From Branchiostoma floridae (Eukaryota; Chordata; Leptocardii; Amphioxiformes; Branchiostomatidae): a DNA stretch of 64,000 nt. Where the stretch lies: contig NC_049981.1 in assembly GCF_000003815.2 (NCBI RefSeq), positions 5,642,043 to 5,706,042 on the forward strand, written 5' to 3'. Made by a program: the position numbers and the translations under genes. The notes beneath the pieces are model-generated. The model did not search any database. It saw nothing but the letters and a program-made list of their open reading frames with translations, and was not told the DNA's origin. Position 1 is the stretch's first letter. Each line of letters starts with the position of its first letter. Below, in pieces: positions 9,601-62,861 of the stretch.

Positions 9601-12600
9601 GGCCCAGAAAAAAAGTTGTGTTTCTTGTTTCAGTCCTGAAAAAAGTTTGGTAGGCAAGGATTATCTTTTTAACTTGTAATTTTTTTAAGGCTGGCCAAGT
9701 TTCTATAGTGATACACATTACAATACAGTTGAACAGTAAGATGAAATGCATGATGACACTTGTATTTCAATGTCAAACTTTAATTTTGTGCATTATAGAT
9801 ACAATGTACATTTATCCTTCATTAGATACGACAAGCAGTGTTACTGGGAGCTATGTGACTCCACTGCCCACCCAAAAAAAGTCTTGGATTGGCAAGTTTT
9901 TCTAGGGTAGGTAGGGAAACAGGAAACACAAGATTTTTATCTCGGGCCTGAGAAGAAAATTAACACAAAATGGGAATAATTTCATCAGGTTGGTATGTCA
10001 CTGAATAAAGAGACTCTTTTTACACAACCAATGCTTTTTATTCTCACCAACGTTGCCTGTACATATGCAAATACTTTAAGATTTGTGACCGCATCTAAAT
10101 GAGCAGCGACACCTGTCCTGCAGTACAATGTGAACCAGTCAGAATTGCCCTTAAGAAGGTGACAGACAGTCACCGAAACGTCGATGAGAATAAAGCATTG
10201 TTTGTGTAAAAAGAGTCTCTTTATTCATTGGTTGTCACAATCAGTTACCTGTGTACACTGTGTCTTCATTGTCAGAGTAAATCACATCTCTGGATGGAAC
10301 TGTGCACTCCTTTGGCCTGGAATAAAAATACATAAAATGTCAAAAACATGAATAAATTACAGCTTGTAAGCATAAAAAAGAGTCTGAATCATAACATTTC
10401 ATAATTCAACACTAACTGGAAAAAAATCAGGTATTTTTTTTTACCTATAAGAACCACTGAGGTCTGTTTCCCCCTGTTTCCCATGAGTGGTAGGTCCCAC
10501 GCGGGACATTCCTCTCAAAGAGACCTCAGCACCAGGCTGTACCATGTTGACTTGAGGGGTGTAGAGGTTGGCATACCTCTGTGGAGGGACAGGATCCTGT
10601 ACACCCCTGTCTAACCTCTGAGGTGGTGTGAACCCTACAGTAGACGCAGGCATTGCTGTATGCGGTACAGTTTCTGGCACCTGAGGAACATACAAATTAG
10701 ATTTTTTTGTCAGAAAACTCTTGAACTATTCTGAACAAAAAGAGGAAAACCTCAGAGCATCCATGAACAGTAAACATCAGGTTGGTATGTCACTGAATAA
10801 AGAGACTGTTTTTTACACAACCACAGCTTTATTTCCACCAATGTTTTTGTGACTGTCTGTCACCTTCCTCAGGGCAATTCTGACTGGTTCACTTTGTACT
10901 GCAGCAAGATGTGTCACCGCTTACATATTGGAGTATCCAGACGTATATGGCCTCCTCTTACAAAATAGTCCCGTATACCTCTTACAAGGTAAGCCATATA
11001 CATCGGGGCACTCCAGTCATGATCATTAATGAACAAAAAAGTGGCACTGGGCATTATAAACTTCCTGGCACGTTTTACCAATTGCTGATGTCGCGTATTC
11101 ATAAGACCACGTTAATAAGATCATGTGTCTGTTACACTCACGAGTTTAAGTTCTAATGTGATTGGTCATCAGTTTTGATCCTAAAGATGGTGAAAGTGGT
11201 CATTGAAAATTTGATAAGTGTATTCCTTTGTGTTTGAAAAAAGTTCAGCATTGCACTATGATAACTACCAACACGGATGAGTTTCCATGATAATCAATGT
11301 GTGTAGTCTAACCAGTATGGACCCTGCGCAGTGGTCCTGGTATAAAGAATAGCTGACTATTACAATCCAACAATTTTTTGCAAAGAATGATTTTCCTCAT
11401 TTTAACGCTGAGCAATTCACCTGTGGTGACAACCTCCTTGGTGAAGATAGCAGCTCATTGAGCGACTCATTCAGCTTCTCGTTGACCATCTCCTGCTGTT
11501 CTGTGATCTGTCGCTGGTACAAAGTCAGCAAGGCCTGGGTCTCCTGGTACTGTTGCTGGAACAGCAGTGAGAGACCATATTTTACACCTTTTCTTTCTCA
11601 AAAGCCAAAGTCCTTTTTCAAATTTATTTCTTGTGTATATCACAAAGAACTAAAAACTCTGGAAACAATACTTGCCAGAGGGAGTTACTGTCACAGTGGC
11701 AAAAATTGATCTAAATTTCTGTTTTGCTCCTGTCAGGCAAAACTTATATATAAATGATAATCATAACTTGCTGGTTATAGGATAAAAAAAAATGCTAAAC
11801 TGGAATGTCAACATTAAAAGAGAGCTGAGTCACTCCCAGACTCTGAGGAAAAGCCTGAAACTTGATATATGCAGTTTGGGGAAATGAATTTAGTCAGATA
11901 TAGCTTACTAAGTTGCAGGGCTCGAAATTTCACTGGTGAAGGTAACATTGAAAGTTACCTGCACCAGACAAATTCTACCTGCACCACTCTCAACTTAGGA
12001 AGTCTGAATCATAAATGTACTAAAATTGTTCAGGAACCATTGCCATTCTTTTCTTTTATAATATTATCAATGCAGCTAATAGCAATTAATACACACCTAA
12101 TCATAGGACATTTATGTATAAAACACGGTACATGGACCAGTGCAGGTTAGGTGCAGGTAGACACCAGAAACACCTGCACAGCTCCAATTCCACCGGCACT
12201 AACCTGCATAAGCAGGTGGTATTTTGAGCCCTGTAAGTTTCTCTCCCAGCCCTCTGTTTCCATCTGGTCATTGGGCTACAATTCTACAAAAAAAACACAA
12301 AATAGCCCCAAACCAAGGCCAAAAATAACTGCTCATGCAGTGGCAGGGCTCGAAATACCACCTGCATATGCACGTTAGTGCAGGTAAAATTGGGGCTGTG
12401 CTGGTATTTCTAGTGTCTACCTGCACCGAACCTACAATGGTCCATGTACTGGGTTTTATACATAAATGTCCTATGAATGATGTCGGTGTATGTGGATTGT
12501 TATTAGCTGCATTGACTATTACCACCTACTGTGTATAAAAGAAAAATAACAAACTTTAAGGTTCCTCAACAATTCTAGTATGATCCATATTTCCTAAATT

Positions 12601-15600
12601 CAGGGTGGTGCAGGTGAAATTTGTCTGGTGCAGGTAATTTTCAAGGTTACCTGCACCAGTGCAGGTGTTCAGAACAAGAAAGCTTCTGAAAAAAGCTGGC
12701 TGGTGCGTATTTTGGAAAAATGATAAACAAAATCACATGAAAAAAGAGTTTTTAAACATCGAATTACTGAATTGGTCTGTCTTCTATTCAAAAAACATTA
12801 CATGAGATTTGTCTAACAAAGAAAAAAATTGTTACAAGTGGGGTTCAAACCCACAATCCACGGCTGCAAAAGCAAATCGCTATATCCACCCAGCGCGTAG
12901 ACCGCTCGGCCACGCTAACTCCATTGCATAATCGCGCGTATAGAAGGGCTATAAGAAGAGTTTGGTTAAATTGACCGATCCATGCATCCATGCAAACCAA
13001 ACCGTTGAACGAACGGCTTCTCTCGCCTCTAAGCCGGTAAAAGTATTTCGAGCCCTGAGTGGCCTACCTCTGCCATGGCTGCCCGAGACTGTATGTGGTC
13101 CCTCTCCTGAGCCAGGTGCTGATACTGGTCCTGTATGGCCTGCAGGGTTTTCTGGTGCTCCTGTTCTAACTGTTGTAACTTCTGTCCGTACGTCTGTCTT
13201 TCTGTCTGTAAGGTCTCCACGGCTTTCTCCTTCTCTTCTCCGACTCTGTAGGAAAAACAAGACATTTTTTATAAGCTGGGGTTAAGGAAGGTGTAGCTGT
13301 GTTTCTAGAGGCTTGTCTGTGTGATGTGCAGTGCAAGGGACCAGCATTGGCTGAATGCTGCTCTGCGTGTGTTGTGTTGTAGCATTTCAAAAAAGTTAAA
13401 CGATCATATGCAGGGCTCGAAATTCATTTTTGGGGTTAGGTGCACTGGTGCACCCAGCTTTAAAAATTGGGTGCACCAAAAACTTTTTGGGTGCACCACT
13501 TAAATCTAAGTAGAATGTCAGAAATCCTAAACTTACTTACAAGCTATCAAATTCTTAAACAAGTACCATGACAGACATTTATATTATCTTTGAACACTTT
13601 TTAGATGTGAAAAATATCATGTATACTAGTATACTTTGATACCTTTACATACATAAGTCTATGAAAATATTTGTGTGCACTAGTACACCCACAGGAAAAA
13701 ATTGGGGTGCACCTGGGTGCACCCAGTATTTCGAGTCCTGGTAGGTGTTGGTTTAGCAATCACTGACTGGCAAAACTTTGTCCCAACACAATAAAAAAGC
13801 TCATCAAATTGCATATCTGTAAATACTGTCTCACTTAAGAAGTCAAAGGACTAGAAACTGAACAGAATCTGCTTTGTATGGGGGATGAAGGAGGCTGTCT
13901 ACATGAACATCAAAACAAGACAGAAAATCTTGTCCATACTTTGCCAGTTCCTTGATGAGATTAGCCACCCTCTTCTTGTCTTCTATTCTCAGGTCCTTCA
14001 AGGCTGGCTTCTTACTCTCAGCACTGCCATTCTGGGGGAAATAGTTACAGAACATTAACAAGTATGAAAACAAATGTACTTATTATCTATTTTCTGCTAC
14101 GTACTAGTACTCTATACGTTTATGAAGGTTAGACATCCAGGTAAGCAATATTCAAATACAATTCAATCTCTACAACTGGATAAAAACGGATATCTATTTC
14201 CGGACGTTTCGAGTGACATCCATCACTCTTCTTCAGCTTTGAAAGAATGAACTAGTCAGAACAATTCAATACCAGTACAGCTAACTAGAAAAACTGGTTT
14301 AACCACTAAATCGTTAGGATCGTAAGCAAAAGGTTGATAATCTTCTCATTCTGTTGTTTGATGATGGAATCCTCCACCTCCTTCCCACTGTCCTCTGCTT
14401 CTATCCTAACGATTTAGTGGTTAAACCAGTTTTTCTAGTTAGCTGTACTGGTATTGAATTGTTCTGACTAGTTCATTCTTTCAAAGCTGAAGAAGAGTGA
14501 TGGATGTCACTCGAAACGTCCGGAAATAGATATCCGTTTTTATCCAGTTGTAAAGATTGAATTGTATTTGAATACTAGTACTCTATGTACCTAAAAACAA
14601 TCTCAACAACTGAATAAAATTTGGAGATTATACGCCCAGACTTGACTTGCGAGTGACATCAATTAAAAAATCTTATTCAGTTGTAGTAGACATTGAATTG
14701 TTTCTAAACATATAGTTTACCATACCCTATTCTTGTACTTTGTATGTGGGCTTCCCTGGAAATCAGTAAAGTTTAAATGTTACGTACTAGTTGGGACTAC
14801 TTAATTGTTTAAAAGATCAACGAATAAAATTAAAAAGCAATAGTACAACACAAAAACCCAGAATGCTCAATATCTACACCCACATAACTACAGAAACCTA
14901 CATTGATGGCATTTCTAAAGCAAGCTGCTAGGGGGCAAAAATTGTACCTTGATAATCTTCTCTTTTTGATGTTTGATGATGGAATCCTCCACCTCCTTCC
15001 CACTGTCCTCTGCTTCTATCCCAGAATGCTTTGTGCTGTTGTCGTCCCTCTCTGGCGTGCTGTGTGCCGTTGGGCTGGGCATCCTGGGATCAAGATCACG
15101 TGATCTCCTTCCCGGCACCCTCTTCTGTGGTCTCTTGTTGCCGATATCAGTTACACCTTGGAAAAGAGCAAAATGTAAAGGTTATGAAGTACAAAGTTAA
15201 GTTAAAATCACTCCTGCATCATATTGTGCAGACCAGTGAAATGGCTTAAGTGGGAAGAGTGTTAGATTCCTTATGAAAAAAGTTGTATTCAGTCAATCCC
15301 TGGCTGAGTCATACCCAAGACTTAAAAAAAATGGTACATGCTGCTTTCTCTGTTAAAAGCTATGGCAGTTGAGCTCATACTAGTACCATCACCATTGTGG
15401 GACCGCGTGGCGCAATCGGCAGCACGTTTGACTCAGGTCCAGAAGGTTCTGAGTTCGAACCCCGCCGTGTCACCGATCTTGTGTCCTTGGTAAAGGCACT
15501 TTACACGACTTTCCTCACTCAAGTGAAAAATGAGTATATAAGCTACAAAGGTCTTCAGCAAGTTGAAGTTTGTAGCCTCAAAACGAAAGACCAGTGGACT

Positions 15601-19439: not shown

Positions 19440-19720
19440 GATCTTCAGTGCAACGTTTGCGGCCGGTAGTTCCGTGCCGGGCTCATCAGCCACGCTCGGA
19501 CCCGAAGGACAAGACCGCATCAACGCACGATGGACGAACATTTTACTTACGCCTACAGACCATACTTTGGTATAGACCAAGGAATAGGTCCCTCAATCTG
19601 TTTCAGTCTTGGCCCTTCTCCATCAGCTGCCCCCTGCACGTGTAGCCACGTGGAGGCGCATCAACTTCTAAGTCCTGCCTCCAGGTGTTTAATCTGCCGA
19701 ACATTTAATCCCACAAAGAA
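19440..19720. mobile_element. LINE 3'-end relic (copy A)
   Basis: Homologous to 31045-31310. In that copy the plus strand encodes a zinc-finger-like CNVCGWPFRTRIGLISH and the minus strand encodes WRQDLEADAT and QDCNRWRDLFH. Both resemble C-terminal parts of non-LTR retrotransposon polyproteins. Frames are broken here. Confidence 0.45.
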
Positions 19721-20334
19721 AAATACAGATTGAAACTCGTTGTTCCAATCGTTTAATCTATAGTATATCTTAATCAGTCTGTGGTTTCGAATAAATTCGA
19801 TGTTTTGAAGCTGGCTTGGTGACACATTGTTTAGCTTTCTTTTGAGTCAGTACAATTTATTATAAAGTTGAGTTTGCCACTGCGTGTGCGAAGTCTGGCC
19901 AAACCGTCTCATAAAAATTTTAGACCAGACAATAGACTTGGAGCCGGAGCAAAGTTGTTACGATTTTCGTCGTCTGTAGACTGTGTCAGATCGACCTACA
20001 GCAGCGGCAACGCCTAAAAATCCAGCGGGCAGCCGAGCAAGGTTCGCCGGCCGCGTCCTGCCATCGCTTCGGAAGATTCAACGGCCTTGAACTGATTCAC
20101 GTCGACGCAAGGGAGTAAGGTACAAAGACTTTGTTGTTTTAAACGCGAGATCTTGCGTTTGGGCGAGGGGAGTAACAAAATATATTTCAAGGAGGATTTA
20201 TCTCGAGATTGTCAATAAATCTTCCCTTGAGGATACGTCATCTGCAACTCTCGACAAAGATCAATCAAGGTGTCAACAACAACTGTTTTCATTGGCAATT
20301 GAACCTTTTGAATTCTACGATTCTTTCAACAAAA

Positions 20335-20950
20335 CATAACTAATTGCAAAAGCAATAAGTACGTCTTTCAATTTTATGTTTCTATTGTTTTAGTTCCCGG
20401 TTAAACTGCGAGACACGTACAGCCGGCCAGGTCTGCCCAACAAGCCGACACCTATAAACAAAGGGTACTAGGCAGAATACATCCAAATTCCTTTGGATTT
20501 TACGATTCTTTCTACAAAACGAAAGTCTGAACTGCTTGCAAAAGAATTAAGTACGTCTTTCAATTTTATATTTCTATTGTTTTAGTTCCCGGTGAGAAAC
20601 GTACAGCCGGCCAGGTCTGCCTCAACTAACCGACACCTATAAACAAAGGGTACTAGGCAGAATACATCCAAATTCCTTTGGATTTTACGATTCTTTCTAC
20701 AAAACGGAAGTCTGAACTGCTTGCAAAAGAAATCAGTACGCCTTTCAATTTTATATTTTTATTGTTTTAGTTCCCGGTGAGAAACGTACAGCCGGCCAGA
20801 TCTGCTTATCTCACAGACAGCTATAAACAAAGGGTTGGCAGAACACATCCAAATTCTTTTGGACTTTACGGTTCTTTCTACAAAATGGAAGACTGAGCTA
20901 CTTGCAAAAGAAAGAAGTACGTTTTTCTATTTTCATTGTTAGAGTTCCCG
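20335..20950 (+). repeat. four tandem splice-acceptor repeats in the LRR gene A leader
   Basis: Units of 192, 185 and 174 bp each contain a pyrimidine-rich tract, TTGTTTTAG (or TTGTTAGAG), then TTCCCGGT at 20394, 20586, 20771 and 20945. Each also has TATAAACAAAGGGT and an AAGTACGT donor-like site shortly before the next unit. They look like tandemly duplicated 5' UTR exons or alternative acceptors. The last unit leads straight into the coding exon. Confidence 0.8.
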
Positions 20951-21085
20951 GTTAATCTACCAGACACTTACAGCCCGGTCTGCTTAACTAGCCAAAGAGC
21001 TATAACAAGGCCAGCATCTTTGACAGGAACAGGCAAAAAACAACAACCAAGTATCGATATCTATAACAAGCCGTTCTGGTTCAAA

Positions 21086-23329
21086 ATGCAGGCGAATTTT
21101 CAGCATAAGATAGTCAGTCGACTTCTGATCATTCTTGCTATATCAGCCATGTGCGGCCGATCTGCCCCCGAGTCGTGTTTTCCTACGTGCGAAAGGAAAG
21201 CGCTGAGTTCGTGCGTGTTCGCCGACAAACTACTTAGTCAAACCAACGGACAGCAATTTCCCAATCTTTCTGACGACGACAAGCTGTGCGTCTCATGCCA
21301 AAACAAGCGGGTAGATATGCCGACAGGGAAGTGTTTTCCGCGGGTGAAATTGCTCGTGTTGAGAGATCTTCATATTCAGTGGTTTGGGACATTGTCTTCG
21401 GAAAAACTAGCTATGCTTCACGCTACAACCTTAACAAGTCTTTTTCTTGTCAACGCAAGTATACAGGAGATAGGCAACGCTGCATTCAGTAATTTCTTTG
21501 CTTTACGAGATTTGAATCTAGATCACAATATGTTGAAATACGTTCCTAAAAACTGGTACGCCTTTTCGTATTCGCCGATTGGCAGATTGCTCCAAAAGCT
21601 TTCCTTGTCTCACAACCACATTTCTAGTCTGGAGCCCTCGTGTTTTGAAAATCAGAACAATCTACATTCACTAGACCTAGAGGGCAACGCTTTGCAATAT
21701 CTACGAAGGGACTGGTTTACTGGTTTGGTTAAGCTCAACACATTAATCCTACGTGCAAACAAAATCCAGGCGATCCCACGCAATGCGTTTGAGCCTTTGC
21801 AGAAACTGCAGTTTCTGGATCTAACTGGCAACGGTGTAACATGTTTGGACAAGGAAGCGCTCTTAGCTATACCGAACTTGAGCAGAGCCGTATTCGGTAT
21901 GGCTTACGGGCTGCACGCGGACCACAGCACGTCATGGGACGTCGTGTTTCAAAACTGTGACGACCAAACAAGACATTGGATGCGATTGGAGATGGTAGGC
22001 ATCGTTCTAGATATCTATTATGATGCTAGCGATGAACAATTCACCATGGCCTGGCTTGGCAAGCTGTCAAAAGCCCCAATCACACCACACTCTCGGTGTA
22101 AGCCGTTCTCGGAGAAAGACAGACCCGGGCGTTTCACAGCGCACTCTCCTTTCGTCGTGATAGCCACGGACAGTGGAGATTCTTTGCACCCGGCACGATG
22201 TTCGGAAGCATGGCACTCATCAGGTGGCCTAAAATTGGCCTTCAAAGGTGCGCCCTCTAGCGAACTGCGAGTGAATAGTTTGCGTCCAATCGGTAAACCA
22301 GGTCCTGGACTAAATAGAAAAGGTACATTTGGCTTAGTGGTGCCTACAATGGAAAAGGAAATAACTGTCTCAGAAATGGAGGAATCTGCAAATGAAGCTA
22401 CAGATAGTGACGACGGTGGAGGACATCCTCATACATTTCCTGTGTCCTGCCATGTCATTTTCCATCACCAACGGGACGTTTCGTTCTTCAACGTGTCCAG
22501 TAATGTACAGCAAGCAGACAATAGTGTGTGCTTTGCGGGGGACATTGCTGTCAATGGCACCGTCTCGACTGTAGAAACGAACACTTCGTTCGTGGACGTA
22601 TCAGAGGATATCGACCATATCACAGGTACACCGGAAAATACAACATCCGTACCTTCATTGAATGTAACCAAACCTATCATCTCACGAACACTGGATAGTG
22701 CTGTAAACACTATCACAGGAATATCTCTATTTTCCGTCACACAAACGCATACAAATCCTAGCAGAGTAGAAACTACAAAAACGTCTAATACCTTTTACCT
22801 GTTTCAAGTAACATTGGGTCTGCTGTTGGCAGTTTCAGCTGCTGCAATGTGCGCTTTTGCAATTACTTTGTTTTGCTACATCAAAAGACGTCAAAGTAAT
22901 AACCATCTGCTAAGAAGCAGAACAAACTTTCTTGTATCTACAGTTCAAAGTAATCAACTGTATCAGGGCGGTTCCTCAGAAACAACGGCCCAAGGAGCGA
23001 GCACGCGGGGCGCCTGTCAAACAAGCGACAATTTTTACAACCAAATTAACGAAGACGAAGTGTACGATGCAGCCGGGCACAGCTACTGTGAAATAAAAGA
23101 TGACACTGAAACTGATTCAGAACAAGATTTTCAAAACGAGAACGGTGAAAACGACAACATGGGATCTTGTACTTTCTACGCTGCTACAGCCGAAGTCAAT
23201 CTACCCACAACAAAGAACATAACCGATGAAACATTGCTCTATAAGAGTGGCCCGGAGACGGTCGCTGTTGTGGACTCTAGAATGCAGAATGTGTCGGTCG
23301 TAAAGAGCGTCAGTGGAGACCAGATCTAG
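21086..23329 (+). CDS. LRR transmembrane receptor, copy A, tail-truncated
   Basis: 747 residues in a single exon. I start at ATG 21086 because the open frame to the left (from 20936) begins with TTG and runs through leader repeats, while this ATG opens a signal peptide (LLIILAISAM, residues 13-22). A Cys-rich N-terminal cap follows. At least four LRRs lie at about residues 110-275 (LRDLNLDHNMLKYVP, LQKLSLSHNHISSLE, LHSLDLEGNALQYL, LQFLDLTGNGVTCLD). A long unrecognised ectodomain with N-glycosylation sites comes next. A transmembrane helix spans about 572-599, followed by IKRR. The cytoplasmic part has Y651NQI and Y667CEI, an ITAM-like pair. The frame stops at TAG 23327-23329 inside a 6-bp insertion absent from copy B. 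The downstream frame (to 23884) stays open. Ligand and function are unknown; an innate-immune or adhesion receptor is plausible. Confidence 0.85.
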   Translation: MQANFQHKIVSRLLIILAISAMCGRSAPESCFPTCERKALSSCVFADKLLSQTNGQQFPNLSDDDKLCVSCQNKRVDMPTGKCFPRVKLLVLRDLHIQWFGTLSSEKLAMLHATTLTSLFLVNASIQEIGNAAFSNFFALRDLNLDHNMLKYVPKNWYAFSYSPIGRLLQKLSLSHNHISSLEPSCFENQNNLHSLDLEGNALQYLRRDWFTGLVKLNTLILRANKIQAIPRNAFEPLQKLQFLDLTGNGVTCLDKEALLAIPNLSRAVFGMAYGLHADHSTSWDVVFQNCDDQTRHWMRLEMVGIVLDIYYDASDEQFTMAWLGKLSKAPITPHSRCKPFSEKDRPGRFTAHSPFVVIATDSGDSLHPARCSEAWHSSGGLKLAFKGAPSSELRVNSLRPIGKPGPGLNRKGTFGLVVPTMEKEITVSEMEESANEATDSDDGGGHPHTFPVSCHVIFHHQRDVSFFNVSSNVQQADNSVCFAGDIAVNGTVSTVETNTSFVDVSEDIDHITGTPENTTSVPSLNVTKPIISRTLDSAVNTITGISLFSVTQTHTNPSRVETTKTSNTFYLFQVTLGLLLAVSAAAMCAFAITLFCYIKRRQSNNHLLRSRTNFLVSTVQSNQLYQGGSSETTAQGASTRGACQTSDNFYNQINEDEVYDAAGHSYCEIKDDTETDSEQDFQNENGENDNMGSCTFYAATAEVNLPTTKNITDETLLYKSGPETVAVVDSRMQNVSVVKSVSGDQI

Positions 23330-23884
23330 ACTGCTTATGGCATGACAGACTGTACAGGTAGATCAGATGACACAGATATCACCTGCATGCCTTCGACGTC
23401 AGAACACGTTACGTCAGAAAACGCCATTGTCCTGCAGTCGGAAAACGTAACTGCCATACATGGAACGTCTGAACACGTTACTGTCCTACCTGGAACATCC
23501 GAAAACGTTTCTATCCTGCCTGGAACGTCAGAAAACATTATTGTCACATCTGGAACGTCGAATAACGTTACTCTCCAACCTGGAACGTCGGAAAGCTCTA
23601 CTGTCCTACCCGAAGCGCAGGAAGACGTAACTGTTCTACCTGGAGCGTCGAAAAACGTTGCTGTCCTACCCGAAACGTCAGAAAACGTTGCTACCTTACC
23701 TGTAACGTCAGAAAACGTTGCTACCGTACCTGTAGTGTTAGAAAACGTGATCATACCTGGGACACCAGAGAACGTTGCTACGTGTGCTACAATCATCGAA
23801 GAAGGGAGAGCAGAACATTCGGAACCCTGTTTTGGGACCGGCGAAATTACGACTGGAGAAGAGGACTTAAATTCAAAGAGTTGA
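23330..23884 (+). pseudogene. former C-terminal tail of LRR gene A, cut off by a stop
   Basis: 184 codons in frame with the upstream gene and nearly identical to the tail of copy B. It encodes about eleven degenerate 11-residue repeats of the type VLPGTSENVT. It is separated from the gene only by ATCTAG at 23324-23329. It would be translated only by stop readthrough or if the insertion is not fixed. Confidence 0.75.
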
Positions 23885-24563
23885 GTTTGAAGAAAGCGAA
23901 CTAAAGCCTACGTCACGTTTTCAAACCGGGCAGCTTTAAAGAACGCAATGTATGGTATAAAAGACACCAACCTTCACAATACGTAAAGAGAATAGTTCTG
24001 GGCATTATTTGAGTATATTTTTACATATAGATGTCTATTATTCGTTGTACTTGTTATACTATAGTAGATTATTATTGTTATTACTGGTATGATTAGTATG
24101 AACTCTTATTCTGATATGATTTGATTTGATCTGTGTTAACCCTTATTCTGATATGTTGTATTCTAAATATTGATAACACGGTGGAAAATGTATAAATGGA
24201 GCTGGTTATTCAATGTTGCCATTGCCAACACTGTAAAGAGCAATCGACTGTTTGCTATGATTATGTCGCAATTGTAGTAAAACTTAGATTGATACAAACC
24301 TGATGCTTCACTAGTACTGTTCGGAACTTACGTAACAACCAGGAAATTTCAGATGTGTCATTTTGAAAACAGGAGCACTTGCATGTACCTGATGTATCTT
24401 GATTATTTGTATGTTGTTTTTGTTTATTAGGGTTAGCATCGAGTTGAAAGAAAAAAAAAACATTTATTAATCTTAGACTGAATATATTTATTCAATTAGC
24501 GTCAGCTATGAGTTGTAACGATTCTATTGAAACTGAATACGAATGGTATGAAATTCTGTGAAT

Positions 24564-24569
24564 AATAAA
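24564..24569 (+). promoter_or_regulatory. polyadenylation signal, LRR gene A
   Basis: AATAAA in GTGAATAATAAAGTATGG, about 1.2 kb after the stop. The same context is in copy B. The real poly(A) site cannot be proven here. Confidence 0.45.
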
Positions 24570-25218
24570 GTATGGTCAATGAATTTTACTTGTGTTTTAT
24601 GTGGTCTACTAATGCAGTATCATATGATAATTGTATTTGTAAATTTATGCCCATATGCCAATGACAAAAGCAATCACAAGGGAAAAAGCGTTTACATTTT
24701 ATTGCTTATGTTTCTATATACATTATTGAAGGTTGACGTCTTCTTTAGAGGCAGTGGCTGATGAAAATTCTAACGTTTATCATAATTAGTGAGTTCTGTG
24801 ATTTCAGTAGAAATGTGTTTGTGAAGATCCTCTAGCTGGTGAAAGCTCATTGAAAATGCGTTCTATTAACTGCATTATTGAGGTAGTATGGAGTGTTTTA
24901 GAACAGAAATAATAGTATGTATAAGTAGGCAAGTCCATTATAAGCGGTGAATGGCGCTCACTGGAAATAAGGCCATGTTGATTTGATTATATAATCCGGA
25001 TATAATATATGCGGGGGGAAGGGGGTAGATGATCTACACAAGCCTGGTCTAGTCTCATATTCTCTCGCGAGATCATTCTCAGCGTCCAAGATGTACTGGT
25101 AGACATCGAAAATTTGGAGGTACGTTCTCTGCCTTTAATAAACAGTCACTGTTAGAAGAAAAATTGATAGTAACTGTAAACATACGTGACTGATGAACCT
25201 TTTCAACGGATATCATAA

Positions 25219-25384
25219 TTATATGATATGGATGATATCCGCGCACGCATCAATGCCGTTTCCAAAATGAAAAAAAAAGACGTTTTCAACCATACTCTAA
25301 ATTGTACAAAGCAGCTTCAAAATAAGAAAATATATGCAGTGGATTACAAAATTAAATATTGGACGTATACTACTGTCCTTATAC

Positions 25385-25416
<32 letters not shown>

Positions 25417-25600
25417 AAGGACAGTATATATATATATATAACATTATATATAACAATATATATAACATTACAATGTCAAAAAAAGATGTTGAGGAACAAA
25501 ACGGAAGAATCTATTGTTTGATTAACTATTTTCTGTTTGTTCCGTCATTTGTTCGACCTTCCTGACCACTTTGATTTCATAGTGTCACCTATTTGTAAAC
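25219..25600. mobile_element. GGATGATATCC-ended MITE interrupted by (TA)n, copy A
   Basis: The left end ATATGGATGATATCCGC and internal AAATTGTACAAAGCAGCTTC match the 29.4-kb element. A (TA)n expansion lies at about 25386-25460. The right end is truncated. The same insert is in copy B at 36870. Confidence 0.7.
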
Positions 25601-25973
25601 AAAAATCCGTTCCTAGATCATAGAACTATATCATATCTTTTTCCGCACCATAGCCTACATCAGGCCTTTCTACTCGGATACATAGATCGTAGTAGTCCTC
25701 TGCTATTTGGGGCTGTAACTGGCCCTCTTTTCTGAGGCCGGCGAATGTAGAGCGGGCTTTTATAAGCGAGATTTAATCAGGCTAGGCTCGTACGAAACAT
25801 AGAAAAGTGATGGCGGACGCACAAGAGTTGTCGTGGCCGAGAAACGGCTACGCTCTCACATCTTCTCTCTATACCTGAATTGCAACCCGTGCTGATCTCT
25901 TGTCTTCCTTATAATATGTCGATGAAGCTTAGACATCCAGGTGATAAGATACGCCAAAAAAAAAACTGTTATT

Positions 25974-26104
25974 TAAGCAACTGGATATGATTTTCGAAAC
26001 GGTCAGACGTTTCGAACAACATCCGGTGACAGTGTCACTGACGACAAACAACGGATGTTGTTCGAAACGTCTGACCCTTTCCAAAACCATTTCAAGTTGC
26101 TTGA
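25974..26104. mobile_element. 130-bp hairpin element, copy A
   Basis: Arms of about 50 bp (25976-26024 and 26052-26102) are reverse complements around TCGAACAACATCCG/CGGATGTTGTTCGA. It lies downstream of the GPCR gene, and the counterpart is at 37564-37694. It carries the CTGACGA...GAAACGTC motif. Confidence 0.8.
26038..26071 (+). ncRNA. hammerhead-like core in the 130-bp hairpin
   Basis: CTGACGA (fits CTGANGA), CA, the 6-bp stem AACAAC/GTTGTT closing GGAT, C, then GAAACGTC. Total length is 34 nt, as in the unrelated hairpins at 14.5 and 62.6 kb. Confidence 0.4.
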
Positions 26105-26424
26105 GTACTAATAACTGATTTTGTCGCAACTTGTATACTTTCTTTTTATCTCTTAGTTGGATGCTGACACAATCAGGACATAAATTTATGACAAGATGTC
26201 TTGGGTAATGACAAACCAATTGAATGAAAATCTGAATCGGTGAGCTCCCATTTGATTCCTCTTTTTACCTTCCCACAAGGGCATTTGAAAAGCATAGTAC
26301 AAGATGCTTCTCAGTCTCTGTGGATTTCTAAGAAACCTAGCCGAGAGTTTTGCTTAGTTCACATGTGGCCAATATTCGCTCTTATTACACAACGACAAAA
26401 TCACATTGATTTCATGTATAACAT

Positions 26425-26430
26425 TTTATT
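26425..26430 (-). promoter_or_regulatory. polyadenylation signal, GPCR gene A
   Basis: TTTATT on plus reads AATAAA on minus, about 300 bp past the GPCR stop. It is conserved in copy B at 37989-37994. Confidence 0.4.
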
Positions 26431-26734
26431 CTGACGTGTGAAGGTCACAAATTCTGGATATCTAAAATAAAACAATTGGTTCGGATGCATACTCGACTAA
26501 CAAGGTCTTACACATACACATACACACAGGGTAGCTGTACTGCATCTACATTCTAATATTCTCTACATAGATTTTGTTTACTCTAGCATAAAAGGTCTTC
26601 TACAAATACAACTAGTGATCTATGTACAATACCTACATATCAGCATGAAATAACTGTCTACTTGTCATTTCTGTCCATCCACGAGCAGCGGCTGAATGTG
26701 TAGGATCAGGAAGTTGTGTTTTGACTGCTTTTTT

Positions 26735-28228: not shown

Positions 28229-28700
28229 GGTGAAGCTAATTCTGGTCTCAAGCAGCACGAGAGAGTTTAGGAACACTGGCGGTGGATGCCTGTATGCGAC
28301 GTTTTCTTTCTAAGATGAAACGGCAAGACGGAGAATGTACGCAGCTGTATGGCCATATGGCGACGGCTCACGATTAAATTCTAACGCTTCGCGGGTCCTA
28401 TTTTGGTTCTGCCCAATCGTCTGCGTCATGAGGGGACGCATGTACTGGTTATTACTTCGTAAGAGAGCAAACTAAAGTGGAGGGAAGTCGCAATACTACA
28501 AAGCAGTTCCCATGTCTAAGTGTTTTTGGTGAAGTTCATATGTACGGCAGTTTTACGTGTTGAGTGCTAGTAATGTACGCGTGTTAATGTCACTGAAAAG
28601 TCAAGCACGGGATGATCTTCGAATACTCAGGATGGAACGCTGTGGTATAGTGAGATATACAATAAAGCAGCTATTTTAAAAATATGCAGATCTTTTGGGT

Positions 28701-29416
28701 TAGAGTCCATTCCAAGTCACCATGAGGGTTTTTAGGTGATATTTGTAATTAGTCTGAATTATTTTGAATAAAAGAATATCTAAGCCACAGTAATTAGATT
28801 CTTTTAAAAAGATTGACTAAGAAAATACTCATCTATTTGAATTCCTTTGAATATTTTAGAAACATTTTGAAAGTATCTGTACATAAATATCTTTATTTAG
28901 AATAATTATGAAACCTCTGTGTGATTATTTCACATTTACAAATATTTACAAATATTTGTAAACTTTGCCAAATGGTAAAATTAGTTTATTGCCCCCCATA
29001 GAAGTAAGCCCTATTGTTGCATCTGTATATTTTTAGATTTAACTGATGGGCACTGGTGGGTCCTTTGTGATAGGCCATTGTGACATGGCACCCAACCATA
29101 CTTTGCAAGGATGTGTGAATGACTATCCTCCCCTCCCACCGGCACTGAACCATTTACAAAACATGGTAGAAAATGGTAAATAATGGTAGAATGCAATATG
29201 CTGTTATCATTATTTAGAAACCATTAGAAGTATCCAATTCCACACTATGAATATTTTTAAAGTTTTACAGGACCAGGGAAATATTTATAAAGTTGAAACA
29301 GTGTTATAAATATTTCTGAAGAATCAAATGTCCTAGACATATAATTACAAAACTTTAAAATCAATTCTAAACAATAGCAACAAACATCCGCATGGTGTCT
29401 TAGAATGGACTCTATG
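28701..29416. other. spacer between duplicated blocks, no gene recognised
   Basis: AT-rich sequence after the end of similarity of copy A. It has short direct repeats such as ACAAATATTTACAAATATTTG at 28937-28957. No coding signal is seen. Confidence 0.5.
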
Positions 29417-29419
29417 ATA

Positions 29420-29790
29420 TAATTATTTAGTATGGATGACATCCGCGTGCGCGTCAATTTTCTGCCCTTTCCAAAATAAAAAAAATGCAACCACACTGTA
29501 AATCGTACAAAGCAGCTTCAAAATAAGCAAATATGTGCAGTGGATTACAAAAATGATTATTGGAAAACGTATGTTACTGTCATAGAACATTACAAAGTAA
29601 AAGAAGATGCGGAAGAACAAAAATGAAGAATCTATTGTTCGGTATACTATCTTAATTCTGTGTGTTCAGTCATTTGTTCGACCTTTCTGACCATTTTGAT
29701 TTCATAACGAAGGCAACTTTTTTATCCGCAGGCTCACATCAACTTTTGGATTCGCAGAGGATGTCATCCATATAATCAAATCAACATGGC
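29420..29790. mobile_element. MITE with TATGGATGACATCC ends, fullest copy
   Basis: Left end TATGGATGACATCCGC at about 29431 and right end GAGGATGTCATCCATATAATC at about 29757-29777 are inverted repeats. Related partial copies lie at 6655, 25219, 29815, 36870 and 47045. Confidence 0.75.
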
Positions 29791-29814
29791 CTAATATACA
29801 AATTAATATATCGT

Positions 29815-32580: not shown

Positions 32581-32716
32581 GGTTAATCTACCAGACACTT
32601 ACAGCCTGGTCTGCTTAACTAGCCAAAGAGCTATAACAAGGCCAGCACCGCTGACGGGAACAGGCAAAAAACAACAACCAAGTATCGATATCTATAACAA
32701 GCCGTTCTGGTTCAAA

Positions 32717-37563: not shown

Positions 37564-37694
37564 TTAAGCAACTGGATAGGATTTTCGAAACGGTCAGACG
37601 TTTCGAACAACATCCGGTGACAGTGTCATTGACGACAAACAACGGATGTTGTTCGAAACGTCTGACCCTTTCCAAAACCATTTCCAGTTGCTTG
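37564..37694. mobile_element. 130-bp hairpin element, copy B
   Basis: Counterpart of 25974-26104, with the same arms and the same position downstream of the GPCR gene. Confidence 0.8.
37629..37662 (+). ncRNA. hammerhead-like core, copy B, mutated
   Basis: TTGACGA replaces the CTGACGA of copy A (first core base C to T). The stem AACAAC/GTTGTT and GAAACGTC are unchanged. If the motif is a ribozyme, copies A and B form a natural active/inactive pair. Confidence 0.35.
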
Positions 37695-50627: not shown

Positions 50628-53600
50628 CTACAACTGAAAGAGGTCGTCCGCATTCCCCTTGTCCAGTTGGTCAAGCATGCCGCTGGTGTGGCTGGACGTC
50701 AGGAAGCCTTTCCTCCTTCCTTTGGACTTCTTAAAGTACAAGGAGGGTTCATCCGTGCTGTTGGTTCTCCTTCTTTGGTAACTCGAGGCTGACCAGGGAT
50801 CTGCCGATGCAGCGAGCCCGTCAAGATCGTAATCACTGGAAATACATAAGGCAGACTCTAGGCTTCTCTCTCATTGGTGGAAGTAAGGCCTAGGAAAATA
50901 AATGTTGTGTTTCCGTTTAGGCCCTTAAAAAAATTGGGGTCGTGAGCCGGTGATTTTTCAAAAGTTTTTGCTAGTATTTCCAGAAAACTGTAAACACAAC
51001 ATTTTTGCCTTGGCCTTATAACAGGGCTCGAAATACTTCAAAAGTATCACTGTTTTCTGCAACCTGTTTTTCATATAACCAACCATGCATTTTCTTTCTC
51101 CGCTAACTTGTGACTCGTTAAGGAAAACCAAACATTTTGTGAAAATTGCATATGCGTATTTTGAACCCTGCATTATCTTAAACAATCAGTTGGTAAAAAA
51201 AAAACAATCATGCTATAAAAGAATGCATACATACACTTGCATGCTGTTAATGTTTCAACTTATTGTCTTGTATTCATAGCATAAATTGCAAAGGCAGCAT
51301 AGTAGAAGAATACATGCACTTGAGAAGTATTTTATTCTGAAACTACAACATGCATGACAGAAATGATGAGATTGCCAAAAGGTTTCTAAAACCTGTTTCT
51401 CTAACTTTACCAAAATAAGATGACTAACAATCTAAGATGGACTGCACAACAGATCACAAGACTTCAGTCACCTTTTATTTTCACTCAGTTTTTGTACTGC
51501 ACTTTTCCTTTCTGATATCTGCAAGTCCAACTTCTTTAGGAAGTCTGTCACTGAAGATGCTTCATCCTTATTGGTTACTCCAGAAGAGGCTGCACTTGCT
51601 CCTTTACTCTCATTGGCTACTGGTTCATCTTTGTTTGATGTCTGATTGGTTGTTTCTAAGTCTCTGCTTCCATTCGTTGTACCATCATTTGTTGGTCTGT
51701 CCTGATTGGTTGGTTCGAACGGGGACCCTAATATTGCGCTGTGATTGGGCAGAATGTCAGACTGGCCCAACCCGTTGACCAATGAGGTGGAAGCAGTGGG
51801 TTGTGGTTCAGATACAGGGATGTTGAGTGTTTTTCTAAGGAAGAGACTGTCGTTGGTGTACAGCTTGTTTGCTCTTCTGATCTGTTCCATCTGCAATAGA
51901 CAACAACAAATAAAAGATATAGCAAATCGTTATTAGCTATTTGTACTAGTGTCTAATTTCTATCAAACTACTGTAAAACTGAAATCAGCAATACAAATTT
52001 GATGACTTTTAAGCAGTGGTTTCAAGGCTGCAATATTTCTCATACAACAGAATGTTCATAACAGCAAACTGAGGACTTTTTGGGATTACCATGAATGTAC
52101 GGTTCTGATGTCATGTGAGTTGTGACAGAAAAACTTGTAGCCATGTCCTGTATGTTCTGTACTAACTTATTAGAGTTAGATTTGGGCTGTACCGCTCGCC
52201 TGACATGCCAGGGCTCAAAATACTTTTTTATGCATATCTGCACTGCACTGGTGCAGGTAACATTGAAAATTACCTGCACCAGACAACTTTTACCTACACC
52301 ACTCTGAATTTAGGAAGTATGGATCATATTAAGATTGTTGAGGAACCATTGCTATTCTTTATTCTATACTTAATAGGTGGTAACAGTCAATGCAGCTAAT
52401 GACAATCTACATACGCCTACACAATAGGACATTTATGTATAAAACCCTGATGAGTACATGGACCTGTACAGGTTAGGTGCAGGTAGACATCAGAAATATC
52501 TGCACAGCTCCAATTTTACCTGCACTATAACCTGCATAATGCAGGTGGTATTGCAGGAGCCCTGCATGCACACAACCGGAAAGATTTGCAGTCCTTAGGA
52601 TGGGATGCTAAGCCATTATCCACTGTTAATGCTTTTTGAAAAGAGCTAAAGTACTGTAGGGGAATTTCCCTAGTATAAATGATTGATCCTGTAACTTGGT
52701 GTAAATACTAACAGTATACATAGCATCTTTCTTCTCTGTCACAGCCAGTGGAAGACTATAGCTCTTCAGTGATAAGCTTAAACTGGATGGAGAATGAGAT
52801 CACTTTCCTTTTTATACTACAGTATCAGCTTACTACCGGCAGTAGTGTTAGCCAACACATACTACTGTAAATGCATTTAAGTTCGCGGAGATTTAATTTC
52901 GCAGTAGCGGGGAACTGGACATTTCGCGGTGGTTTTAATTTCGTGGTATCACCATACACTGTAGTCTCTTACTGTTATGGATAAATGTTCGCGGCGGTTT
53001 TAAATTCACGGTGAAGCGGCCGCCGCGAAAACCGCAAACAGTAATCCACCGCGAAAGTTTCTGCATTTACAGTATCACTTGCATGTTACCATTTCATCAT
53101 GCAGCAAACAGTCATGAAATAGTATGGCCAAAGGTCAGGTCTAATCTAAGAGCCCTTTCTGGACTGAAGTGAGAATTTGGCTGACAGCCAGTCAGTAGCA
53201 AATTGGCTGGATTTGCTGCAAATTGGCTGGATTTGCTGGCTGGATTTGCTGCTGGTCTTTGTAGCTGTAGCAATCACAGCTTGAAATTTGTTACCAGATG
53301 CATAAGGCACAAACTAGATTGCACGCATGCATGCATAAAATCCTCTGAAGACACAACAGACACACATAGACACACTCACACATGCAAACGTGCATGCACA
53401 CAGTCACAAAGAATTATATTATTTATAATATACACACACCATGTACTAGTACACACAAACACATACACGATGGTCATGCACACACACACACACACACACT
53501 GTCACACCAATATAGACATACTAAGTAAGAGAGACAGGCAACAAAGAGAGATGCACTCACACACAATCACATACTATTACTCCTAAATAAAAACAAACAC

Positions 53601-55138: not shown

Positions 55139-58100
55139 ATGTCGTTCAAGCGAGAGGGAGATGATCGGAGTCAACTAAACTGCCTCAAGGTGCGACAATC
55201 GTTCAGATATATTTGAGATTTTGACTGCCATGCATTGCTTTTGTTTTCCTTCTACTATAATTGTTCCGAAAATAAACACGTGTGTTGCTTAGACATCTTC
55301 GGTTTGGTATGAGTTGTTACTCCCGCTCCCCATCTAACGCATATGTAAGCGTCACATTGCATCCGTGTTGAAAATTATAGTCACAATTCGTCAGTTTTTG
55401 ATCTAGAAAAATCTTTTATTGCAAGTGCCTTTCCCGATAACATTAATCATGATTGGGGAAAATATGTCTGATTGCTGAGCTATCAAAAATTCATCATCAT
55501 CATCATTCGTCCCATAGCCTTATTAATCAGCCGTAGGGGCAGCACAATATGTTATGCTGTATCAATAGGCATTTTAGTCCTCTGGCGGCGCCTATCTCAT
55601 CTCCGGGGAATCTAAAATTGATACCCTGTAAATTGCAATACTGCAAACAATGTTGATGTTCTATTCTCTTATGTATTAAACAGAAAAGAAGAGTGACTGA
55701 GCTGCTAGCTGGAGACATCCCAGATGATGAAGCAGTCCTGATGAAGAATGGAAGGTGGGTGTCGCAACCATGAACATAAAAATATAAAGAAATAAACCAA
55801 TGAATTACTATCAACATATAAACAGGGCTCTAGCCAGCTCGAATTTTTTTCCGTCAGCCAATTCCCATTAATTATCGCGAAAACGGCAAAAACACTTTTC
55901 CAGGAGTTAGAGAGACTGAACTGAGACCTTGAAAAATGGGTTTTAATGAGATAATCGTATGCGAAAGGGCGCCGACACACTTCGTCAACACTAATAACAA
56001 TAGCAAAACAAACAGTGTGTGGCTTTTACGGCCGTGGACGGCGTCTTCAAGCCGCCTGTAGCTTCCACCAAGAATCTTTGTCCGTCAAGGTTGACGGATT
56101 GGTTCTAAAAATTTTCTGTCACACGCAGCAAATTTCCATCAATTGACGGAAAAACCGACGCTGGCTAGAGCCCTGCATGTAAATGAACATGATACATTGT
56201 GTCATTTATTAACTCTCCAGTTGTGTACAAAGATTTCTGTTACTATTTCTGTTATTATATGATGAAAACATTTGCTCGTTAAGAGCTGCACCTAATTCCA
56301 CTCCACCCTTCTGTCTGTCTGCCAGGTTGGCCTGCCTGGTCTGCAGCCACAAGCCAGTGTTTGACACAATCGATATGCTGACTGTGCACAGGGGTGGCAA
56401 GAAACATCTCAACAGTAAGTACATACAGAACTCTTTAATCTCCAAGCAGCTGCTTTGGTGGTACATCATAATGAGCTTGACACCAAGTCAAAACATTGTT
56501 ATCTACCACCTCTATGTTTCCTTCGAGAATATAGCAAAATGATAACTGTCACTTGTAGCACTATGTACTGGTACACTGAACCGGTACTGGACTTGTGAAA
56601 AGTTTCGGTTCAAAAGTTCAGTTAAAACCGTAATGTCAAGAACTGGTTTTTTGACTTGCAAAAACTAGCACTCTTAAAACTTACAAGCCTATACTTGAAC
56701 CTGAGTCTCTTAACTCAAGTCCAGATCTGAACCTGAATGTGAGCACAGGTACACAGTACTTAATTCACTTGCATATAACGCTACTTAATCTTTATCCGCA
56801 GGGTAACCTATATCCGTTGTAGATGAAAAGGGGTTTTAGGGATATCAAGTTAGCGGGCGGCAGTTTCAAAATGCAATATCTTGAAAACATTTCAATTTTA
56901 GACCAAGGTGGTTGATTTGATAACCCTGCTTTTAAAAGTGACGGATATAAGATACCCAACGGATAAAGGTGACCTAGCGTTAAGTTGTCCTGTAGTATTG
57001 TTATCATCATCATCAGGCATCAGCAGCAATATTGTTATATCTTTTTTAGAATAGTTAATAAAACCAGCCATCTTCTACCTGCAACAAAATAGATGACAGT
57101 AGTTTGAGCATGTGTTGGAAAAGTGTTGAGCAATTAAATATTAATTGATCATTGAACTCAGACTGATATGTGGCTTATGATTTTTCAGACCAGCAGAAGT
57201 TTTACTTCAAGAAACAGGAGCTGGCTGATCTCATTCTGAAGAGGAGACAGGAACAGTTTCTATCAGCACAAGATGAGGTACGGACTTCTACGTACAGGTT
57301 TGGTCTATAAATTGCCATGTGGTCCTTATATAGAGGTGTTCACTAGTACAGGTTTGACTGTACATGTATATCAATGGCAAGGTGGTCCTTTTGTAGAGGT
57401 GCTCACTTGTATAGGTTTGAATGTATATCAATGGTCAGTTGGTCCTTATGTAGCGGTTGTTACTTATACAGGTTTGACTGTATATCAATGGCCAGGTGGT
57501 CCTTATGTAGAGGTGCTCACTTATACAGGTTTGACTGTATATCAATGGCCAGGTGGTCCTTATGTAGAGGTGTTCACTTAGTACAGGTTTGACTGTATAC
57601 TACTAGTAGGCTATTTCATAATGCTTAGGTTAATGAGAAAAATCCAAGGGACCGACAAAAAGTGAACGCAGTGGCCAGGTGGCTGCGATGCAAAGGTAGC
57701 CGCTAAATGCAGGTTTGACTCAGTATATCATATCCTGTTGGTTTATAACGGTATTTATTTTTTGCTGATTTCAGGAGGACCCCACGCCCTTTCTCACCCA
57801 GACCAGACAGATCACCCAGCATGCCTTGCTGACAGCAGCCACTCCCTACAATCCCTGTGTGAAGCAAGGAAGGAAGAAAGAAGAGGACCAGGCAAAGGGG
57901 TAAGGTGTCATGAAAGCAAATCGTTTTATGTGGCAAACTTGTCTTGTGGTTAGGTTCATGCTGTCTGTGTGCCAAATTGTGGGCAATCTTTTTTGATCCA
58001 TAAGTGGTAAGTACCGCCTCCGTACGAACTTGTAGGGAATCCGACGGATTTCGGAGCACGCAGGCACGCCGTAGAACTTTACGTGAAGCCAAAACTTTGT

Positions 58101-60227: not shown

Positions 60228-60229
60228 AC

Positions 60230-61370
60230 ATTTTGTATTGAAACAAGCAAGACATCTCTACTTAGTTTGACTTAGGTAATCATTACAAAGTCAAAGCCTT
60301 TTTGATATAACGTTAACAATATGTAGCTTTAGAAGCATGCAATTTTTTTTCCCATTCTGCTTATCATTGCACCCCCCCCCCACGCACACACAATCTTTCG
60401 AATGGAGGGTCCTATGTGACAACAATAACTTTTATGAACTCAGACATCTCTGAGTGAGACATTAAGTTTGAACATGTTCCAGAAGTGTCTACAGAAAGAT
60501 AGTGCTAGATGTATTTTCAGAAAGATTTCGATTCGAAAATGAACGGACAGACCATTTCTCATGGCCCTTCTAACATATTTGGTCTGTGTAAATTTATCAA
60601 CTGCAGATTTATCAACTTGGACGTGTCTACATTAGTCTTATGTCTATGATTTTGTGTAAATGTCTCCCTGTGTTATAGGCGCCTTGAGCAATCTTATTTT
60701 TGATTGGGAGTTTAAAATGAAGACACTTATAATACTAGGCACTTAACTTCAGCGACCTTATACCTTCATGAAACATTTAGAGCTTTTGTAGATTTTATGC
60801 AAATGACTTAAACATCTACATAATTCATGCATGATGATCTTGAACAGCAATGACTTACATACACATGTCACAGTATATATCTGTATCTATATAGCCGGTA
60901 TTACGATGTAACGGTACAAAACCGGTTTGACAGGTTAAGAAAAACCGGACCTGAAAAAAAATCCGGATGTTGGACCGATTCGAAAATGAACGGATTATAC
61001 CGGCAGGCATTCACGTGTTTGGGGGCTTTATATTTACCACTCCAAGAAAATAACTATTGAAGTAGAGGAGAGGTGATAGTCATTTTACCAAGCTTCTACC
61101 GTCAAACTTGGTCTAAAACAGAGGAGTTAGCTAAAAACATGAGTAGGATAGGATTTTAAAACGCCTATGGACGCTGGATACTCAACAAAAAAGAACCCTC
61201 GGCTATTTTTGACCATTGTTTTGAGTATGGACCATCTCTGCAAGTTTTCACAGTAAATCTGGTTCAGGTGCGGACATGGACTTGATCTTCTGTACCTGAA
61301 CCGTATCTGTACCTGAATTTTCTGTACCGTTACCTACCCCTAGTAAGCAACACTATCCCTCGCAAAGCTC
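60230..61370. other. intergenic, repeats only
   Basis: Downstream of SCNM1. GATTCGAAAATGAACGG occurs twice (60530, 60978). 60895-61330 has repeated ACCGGT/GTACCTGAA strings of the kind also seen at 56560-56760 and 30303-30690. No gene recognised. Confidence 0.5.
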
Positions 61371-61372
61371 AG

Positions 61373-61685
61373 TCATACAGGAGACACATACTGGGACACT
61401 TTTCTATTGTGATTCCAATGTATGACTGAAGGATACACATGTAAAACCAAGTCATACAGTAGACACATACTGGGACACTTTTCTATTGTGATTCCAATGT
61501 ATGACTGAAGGATACACATGTAAAACCAAGTCATACAGTAGACACATACTGGGACACTTTTCTATTGTGATTCCAATGTATGACTGAAGGATACACATGT
61601 AAAACCAAGTCATGCAGGAGACACATACTGGGACACTTTTCTATTGTGATTCCAATGTATGACTGAAGGATACACATGTGAATCT
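61373..61685 (+). repeat. 79-bp tandem repeat, four copies
   Basis: GTCATACAGTAGACACATAC, then TGGGACACTTTTC...GGATACACATGT, at about 61373, 61452, 61531 and 61610, with near-identical units. Confidence 0.95.
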
Positions 61686-61689
61686 CAAT

Positions 61690-62861
61690 GGAATCACAGT
61701 CCCTAATTGGCGATAAGGAAACTTTTTGGATATACATGTATATCCTCCAAAGCAAACATAAAGAACCCTCTGACTAGGGAAAAAGACAAGATACACACAG
61801 GGGATATCTCCTCTTCAGATGGTTGTGTTTTTAGTGTTTCCCTTGAGTTTCAACTATTGAACTGAGCTTTGTGAGGGTATGGAATGAACAAAAAGACAGT
61901 TGTCTTATCTTCGTGGGCAGCATTTGTAGCAATCCCTCTTTATTTGCCACTTAACTGGTTCAGTACAATAGTTGATTCTAGAGCAGAGAGAATGCAATCC
62001 AGAGTCTTTTTTTCTACAAAGCAAACCACGTCCATCGTTTCATCTTCGGAAGTCTCTTGTCGACACGGAAATTATCAGTCGTGCTGTCAGGAAGAAGACA
62101 TCTCCGAAGCCCTGGGGACTTAACATCCTTTAATCAACAAAGTGATATTGTGTGCTTCTGTTCATGAAATAGCACAGTATCATTCTGTCTACGTATCTGG
62201 ATGGGCTACAAGTACTAAAAGCCTCTCAGATACATACAGTTACTATTCGGAGTCGGTAGTAAACTGTATACTCTACAAAGACAGATTCATCCGTTTTAAC
62301 GGACTACAGCACAGGCTTTTATTTGACAGGTTAGTGCCTGTCACAGTCTTATAGAAATCGGCGACGTTCTTTTTTCTCTTTCAAGACTTGAGAAGATCTC
62401 CAGAATGACTCCGAGCATTCATAAAACATGAGCCACACTGCCTCTTCATTTCATCTTATCCGGTAGGCTGGAAATTAGTCGGAGTGTGTTAGGAAGAGCC
62501 TGGGGGAACCACCCTATCCATATCCTGTAATCATAATTATACTTCTCTGTTCATCATGCATATTACAACACAAAACACACCCAGAATATTTGTTACAGTA
62601 CTTAAGTTTTGTAAAATTCACAAAGAACAATGTCACTGAAGAAAGGTGGTGGATGGTAAATGAAACGTCTGACCGTTTCTAAAATCACATCTAGTTTTTT
62701 TTTTTTCATTTGCTTTCATATTGTCTATCTAACTACGTTAATGTCTAAACTTTATCGAAATTCATGACACAGAAGCATGGAAAGATATTTTAGTCCATGT
62801 CTAATTGATTGGACACAAGACTCCTAAATTTTAGTTACGGTGGTATCTCACTGCAATTGGG
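61690..62861. other. intergenic, no gene recognised
   Basis: A 79-codon ORF at 61884-62123 has no recognisable domain. A hammerhead-like motif lies at 62636. Confidence 0.4.
62636..62669 (+). ncRNA. hammerhead-like core
   Basis: CTGAAGA (fits CTGANGA) and GAAACGTC at the usual 34-nt spacing, with an imperfect stem between (AAGGTGG...GGTAAAT). GAAACGTCTGACCGTTTCTA links it to the 26.0-kb hairpin family. Confidence 0.3.

Follow-up and report, generated by a model that had tools for sequence, protein, structure and literature searches.

A hammerhead-like RNA motif in the terminal repeats of Penelope-like elements of Branchiostoma floridae

A short motif that recurs in the 64,000-nucleotide stretch of Branchiostoma floridae DNA analysed here (hereafter the window) is almost certainly a minimal type I hammerhead-fold RNA located in the terminal repeat (pseudo-LTR, pLTR) of Penelope-like elements (PLEs), and its copies in the window are short remnants, decayed for the most part, of at least three PLE families. 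A sequence-only reading of the window had noted the motif at five loci and one mirror-image position, and all six stretches were found as described. Four of them match CTGANGA followed by 14-24 nt and GAAACGTC exactly (14487(+), 14236(-), 26038(+) and 62636(+)), and two match with one mismatch (10150, which reads CTTAAGA, and 37629, which reads TTGACGA). The third one-mismatch match in the window, at 47569(-), was read as chance because its insert length differs and it has no relative among the other copies. The chance level was estimated from 40 first-order Markov sequences with a dinucleotide make-up equal to that of the window, which contained no exact match and, per window, 0.2 matches with one mismatch.

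The hairpin elements that carry the motif had been taken to be unrelated. This proved to be wrong: they represent families of a single kind of retroelement. The copies at 62636 and 26038 belong to the same family (GTCA before, TGACC after), while the 10150 family and the 14203/14487 family are two others of the same kind. Nor are all loci independent: 26038 and 37629 lie one in each half of an 11.6-kb duplication and therefore represent one insertion, which is counted once. The 6-bp stem II proposed for the loci is present as GGTGAC/GTCACC at 10150, but it is broken at 62636 and its first pair is mismatched at 26038, where a C also occupies the place of the extra A that is usual in most copies. 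Changes in the core concern position 5 at 10150 and C3 at 37629. Beyond those listed earlier, the window holds, on the minus strand, truncated inverted partners at 25992-26046, 37583-37637 and about 10010-10054 and a diverged copy within 10810-10904 (Table 1).

Table 1. Copies of the hammerhead-fold motif and associated PLE features in the window.
Feature	Position	Strand	Support
Minimal hammerhead relic, CTTAAGA (core base 5 changed), stem II GGTGAC/GTCACC intact, stem I 1 bp	10150..10182	+	Model R1 match, E 0.095
Inverted partner of the 10150 copy, only 3' part	10010..10054	-	
Diverged copy of 10118-10212, motif damaged	10810..10904	-	86% (I4); 3 mismatches at 10872(-)
Target site duplication, left copy, 14 bp, TACTAGTACTCTAT	14102..14115		
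Two-ended PLE insertion, inverted arms 172 nt; left end with tail (~+88 from GTC), right end without tail (~+52)	14116..14572		
Minimal hammerhead, intact core and stem II, stem I 1 bp only	14203..14236	-	
82 nt between the arms	14321..14402		Apparently coding (minus strand), judged by eye
Minimal hammerhead, intact core and stem II, stem I 1 bp only	14487..14520	+	
Target site duplication, right copy, TACTAGTACTCTAT	14573..14586		
Inverted partner of the 26038 copy, 5'-truncated	25992..26046	-	
Minimal hammerhead, intact core and 4-bp stem I; stem II AACAAC/GTTGTT with one basal mismatch	26038..26071	+	
Duplicate of 25992-26046	37583..37637	-	
Duplicate of 26038-26071, C3 changed to T	37629..37662	+	
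Minimal hammerhead relic, intact core and 4-bp stem I, broken stem II	62636..62669	+	
PLE endonuclease-like frame, last 46 residues, cut by an assembly gap	63103..63240	-	Alignment with L095 and L139

The window also contains features apart from the motif. The tandem 11.6-kb duplication spans about 19537-31139 and 31140 to about 43000, with ungapped 300-nt blocks that are 90-100% alike, and carries open reading frames (ORFs) for leucine-rich-repeat proteins (20897-23329 and 32528-35506) and, on the minus strand, rhodopsin-type receptors (26735-28309 and 38304-39860). Pfam searches with eight window ORFs returned LRR, 7tm_1 and KIAA1328 domains and left five ORFs without a match. An ORF at 5350-6201 with a YVDD box resembles a remnant of a non-LTR retrotransposon; it had no Pfam match at 1e-3, and neither did the endonuclease-like frame at 63103 match any Pfam family. 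Another dispersed repeat with inverted arms occurs at 11931-12664 and 52243-52527 (I2, I3, I5-I7), and tandem repeats are present at 228-2331 (unit of ~190 bp), 20337-20972 and 31962-32603 (~185 bp), 57303-57599 (57-63 bp) and 61285-61758 (~79 bp).

Genome-wide, the motif is far more frequent than its control. Across the 513-Mb assembly (431 contigs), CTGANGA-N(10-30)-GAAACGTC matched 3,248 times (1691 forward, 1557 reverse), compared to 85 matches (40 + 45) of the reversed pattern. RNA structure was studied in 57 and later 101 sites, a non-random sample from the window and the first part of one contig (C1). As these sites were picked by their core, it is the excess over the reversed control that demonstrates conservation of the core. 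A stem II of at least 5 contiguous bp is formed in 76 of the 101 copies in the register that starts one nucleotide after CTGANGA; in the register directly after CTGANGA the number is 0/101, and two nucleotides later it is 3/101. Stem I, in which the nucleotides preceding CTGANGA pair with those that immediately follow GTC, reaches at least 3 bp in 58/101 copies at the predicted cut site, and sliding it by 1-3 nt left 0, 0, 0, 0, 0 and 1 of 101 copies. The weaker copies have a stem I below 3 bp (43/101) or a stem II below 5 bp (25/101). The words that form stem I change with the family: GTCA/TGAC, TTGCC/GGTGA, GCT/AGC, GCTTTTG/CGGAAGT and TTTTGTA/TACAGAA. The genomic excess together with the registers of both stems bears out the earlier notion of a hammerhead-like RNA.

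Covarying stems had also been proposed as a sign of selection on RNA structure, and covariation is indeed present across the genome-wide copies. In alignment A2 (36 rows, 34 distinct), 86.5% of the cells are paired compared to 72.6% after shuffling, and 57 cells show changes on both sides compared to 17.4 in the shuffles, with both-sided changes at 6/6 pairs of stem II. Alignment A3 (12 rows) gave 84.1% versus 75.4% paired cells and 18 versus 8.3 both-sided cells. In slid structures, 18-50% of the cells were paired. Two of the five measures, namely the number of pairs with both-sided change and that of further pair types, were not above the shuffles in A2 and A3. For stem I, A2 contains only two both-sided cells, so that the case for this stem rests mainly on its register and on the differences between families. 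In an initial alignment, A1 (53 rows), a gap had been put in the wrong place in families with a short loop, and A2 and A3 were therefore built from rows of equal length. Not included in these two were the duplicate 37629, the chance match 47569, the mirror copy 14236(-) and any copy whose insert length differed.

The Rfam hammerhead models, to which the sequence-only reading had pointed, did not score: no hammerhead family was returned even at E up to 10 in the window and in 19 of 20 small loci (L115 left out). Minimum free energy (MFE) folding of four single window copies yielded no hammerhead, and stem II appeared only for 10150. A pattern search in IMG/VR returned 70 matches, which were read as chance, with stems of 1-2 bp in 58 of them and none of more than 5 bp.

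The carriers of the motif are Penelope-like elements, a link that the earlier reading had suggested and that the position of the motif supports. Open frames with an endonuclease motif of the Penelope (PLE) type, putatively GIY-YIG, occur in the loci L087, L095 and L139; those of L087 and L095 end 241 nt and 372 nt, respectively, before a copy of the hammerhead-like motif on the same strand. A genome search with the L087 protein gave at least 152 matches, with 150 of 1711 first-look candidates scored, and the 3' flanks of 20 matches, chosen to span the range of identities, were examined. In 11/11 loci with at least 63% endonuclease identity, a motif with intact core lies 176-256 nt downstream on the same strand. 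Among the nine loci at 44-48% identity, three (L131, L133 and L135) have a variant motif, and in the other six the motif was not found on the same strand. The 511-aa frame of L139 matched the reverse transcriptase domain RVT_1 with an E-value of 1.9e-6 and 28.2 bits, slightly below the Pfam cutoff of 29.6. The endonuclease pieces had no GIY-YIG or other endonuclease match in Pfam, NCBIfam and PDB sequence searches.

The copies share a common 3' end and vary in length at the 5' end. Within the main family (36 sequences), homology ends about 52 nt after GTC or, with a common tail, about 33 nt later, which places the 3' ends in two classes near +52 and +86. Inverted partners are found mostly on the 5' side of the motif, within 140 bp at 16/50 sites (1 downstream), within 150 bp at 23/85 sites (2 downstream) and within 800 bp at 18/33 sites (2 downstream), in site sets that overlap; the 3' ends of such inverted pairs face outward. 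Direct copies within 800 bp are rare by comparison with these 18 inverted upstream partners (2/33 upstream, 3/33 downstream). This argues against a retrozyme, a small non-autonomous element of tandem repeats that carries a classical type I hammerhead and propagates through circular RNA. Although type I hammerheads of animals frequently belong to retrozymes, according to the passages of PMC7229834 used here, we regard this origin as very unlikely for copies whose stem III has no loop and which come after a reverse transcriptase (RT)-endonuclease frame.

Among 27 two-ended insertions (14 plus 13 more, all different), the two outer edges carry the same word of 10-14 bp in seven, i.e. a target site duplication (TSD); the remaining ones share words of 7-8 bp at chance level, or none. 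In 7/7 insertions with a clear TSD, the distance from GTC is 46-54 nt at one edge and 72-89 nt at the other. These seven include the insertion at 14116-14572, which is flanked by TACTAGTACTCTAT on both sides. For the sequence between its arms no obvious donor site was apparent, and it is perhaps a captured cellular sequence, comparable to that between the pLTRs of Adineta. Inverted arms with target duplications, as in this insertion, would also be expected if the hairpins represented termini of DNA transposons or of foldback elements whose likeness to hammerheads was accidental. The variable 5' ends, the two 3' end classes, the linked RT-endonuclease frame and the register of stem I across a loopless GUC speak against such an origin, which we consider extremely improbable.

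In the canonical hammerhead consensus, stem II follows directly upon A9 with no unpaired nucleotide. In the copies studied here, A9 is separated from stem II by a single unpaired nucleotide. This extra base, first listed as a doubt about the hammerhead assignment, proved to be near-universal, as the stem II registers above indicate, with A at this position in 97 of the 101 copies, C in three and T in one. Genome-wide, 93 + 62 matches have a nucleotide other than A at this position compared to 7 + 7 in the control, and many of the non-A matches listed belong, as judged by eye, to one uniform T family with an intact stem II. This family reads CTGATGAT-GGTGTC-TGACA-GACACC-GAAACGTC and may be recent; its copies often occur as minus-then-plus pairs at most a few kb apart (e.g. 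C3:9436328-/9438100+ and C8:22066342-/22067770+).

Stem III had likewise been suspected of being too short for a lone molecule, and in GAAACGTC it indeed amounts to 2 bp, A-C against G-U, without a loop. The same self-complementary design recurs in AATT families with GAAAATTC (AAUU), which gave 124 + 132 genome matches compared to 5 + 2 in the control; the AAUU copies of L133 and L135 lie just after the endonuclease frame and have a stem II of 5 bp and a stem I of 3 bp. Other palindromic words were found less often (AGCT, 3 + 1 versus 1 + 0; ATAT, 12 + 18 versus 0 + 2), as were the non-palindromic combinations GA/GG (23 + 23 versus 4 + 2) and AA/AG (59 + 56 versus 7 + 6), whereby the ACGT count of 3,248 was obtained with a wider gap than the counts of the other words. 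Thus, two of four palindromes (ACGT and AATT) are amplified, and the other words tested resemble scattered changed copies, with a few small clusters by eye. These word counts suggest that a self-complementary stem III, and hence pairing in trans, is favoured.

The nearly universal inserted nucleotide and the AAUU stem III are the less expected features of the copies, and we make no claim of newness for the former; a literature text search for the letters CUGANGAA/CTGANGAA, a weak test, gave no match. Taken together, they may point to a distinct architecture, obligately dimeric or protein-assisted, that combines a fixed unpaired nucleotide with a loopless self-complementary stem III and produces two-ended insertions with one 3' end per RT start site. 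In such an architecture, the inserted nucleotide would be free in its identity (mostly A, T in one amplified family) but hardly ever missing, and stem III would stay self-complementary by double change as ACGU or AAUU. We regard this reading as tentative and rather unlikely.

For the minimal type I hammerhead-fold RNA itself, we propose that stem I starts directly at the core, that stem II comprises 6-7 bp and that A-C pairs with G-U in the loopless stem III. As one molecule can hardly close this stem III, two copies most likely pair. From the sequences, it appears likely that they would do so via a 4-bp duplex of the self-complementary ACGU and that cleavage would then occur after GUC, perhaps with the assistance of the element's protein. 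As the ends of the genomic copies show, reverse transcription starts some 52 or 86 nt past the predicted cut site. Since the insertions end 3' of this site, we infer that the RNA that is copied was uncut at GUC, which agrees with in vitro work on a PLE of the anole. According to the portions of PMC11167929 drawn on here, two RT start sites explain the tail of this element, Poseidon of Anolis carolinensis (PAc), and both DNA strands are cut and extended; its hammerhead cut only in the presence of protein, and insertion in vitro proceeded without the need of hammerhead cutting. The elements described here resemble PAc, as far as that text goes, in the location of the hammerhead near the pLTR-ORF junction with RT starts downstream, in the optional tail of 30-40 bp and in a cut site that is dispensable for insertion, although PAc comes from another species and the likeness is drawn from its description in the text (PMC11167929).

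The same work lends weight to a different function, in which the structure is kept as a protein-binding or reverse-transcription signal, with the RT-endonuclease recognising a folded RNA end, and not for self-cleavage. Insertion of the anole PLE in vitro without hammerhead cutting, and cutting only with protein, would both fit a signal (PMC11167929, in the parts used), as would RT start sites as close to the motif as about 52 and 86 nt, and both the extra nucleotide and the loopless stem III would be tolerable in such a role. However, stem I is in exact register with the expected cut site, and core mutants of the anole PLE lost cleavage, as stated in the same parts of PMC11167929. The over-represented words are, moreover, those that we recall as the catalytic bases. 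On balance, we consider a role as a mere signal unlikely, and self-cleavage of paired copies remains our preferred reading.

Minimal hammerheads of PLEs, probably dimeric, have already been published, and the find is therefore mostly known. The original descriptions (Cervera and De la Pena 2014; Lunse, Weinberg and Breaker 2017) are taken here from excerpts of PMC7761336, PMC7229834 and PMC6155905. As PMC7761336 puts it in the relevant passage, the hammerheads of PLEs are of type I with a reduced helix III, number thousands per animal genome and probably act as dimers. As far as these excerpts describe them, the copies in B. floridae share the type I order, a helix III without non-conserved nucleotides, the location in PLE terminal repeats, the thousands of dispersed copies per genome and the probable action as dimers. 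Beside these published hammerheads, which we know by description only, the copies here carry a nucleotide before stem II (A in 97/101), and some families here have AAUU in place of ACGU. A further parallel is Penelope of Adineta vaga, for which the excerpted text of PMC3846280 describes inverted pLTRs that lie head to head, one of which carries a tail of 31 bp, as well as TSDs of 8-10 bp and unrelated sequence caught between the pLTRs. Inverted pLTRs, a one-sided tail, TSDs and sequence caught between the pLTRs are likewise found here, whereas the TSDs found here measure 10-14 bp compared to the 8-10 bp given in that text (PMC3846280).

The B. floridae genome thus provides thousands of natural hammerhead copies without a usable stem III in one animal, some of which adjoin their own RT-endonuclease genes. 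This makes it possible to test what purpose the ribozyme of PLEs serves if insertions derive from RNA that is uncut at its site, and how a hammerhead core can function when it contains an additional nucleotide.
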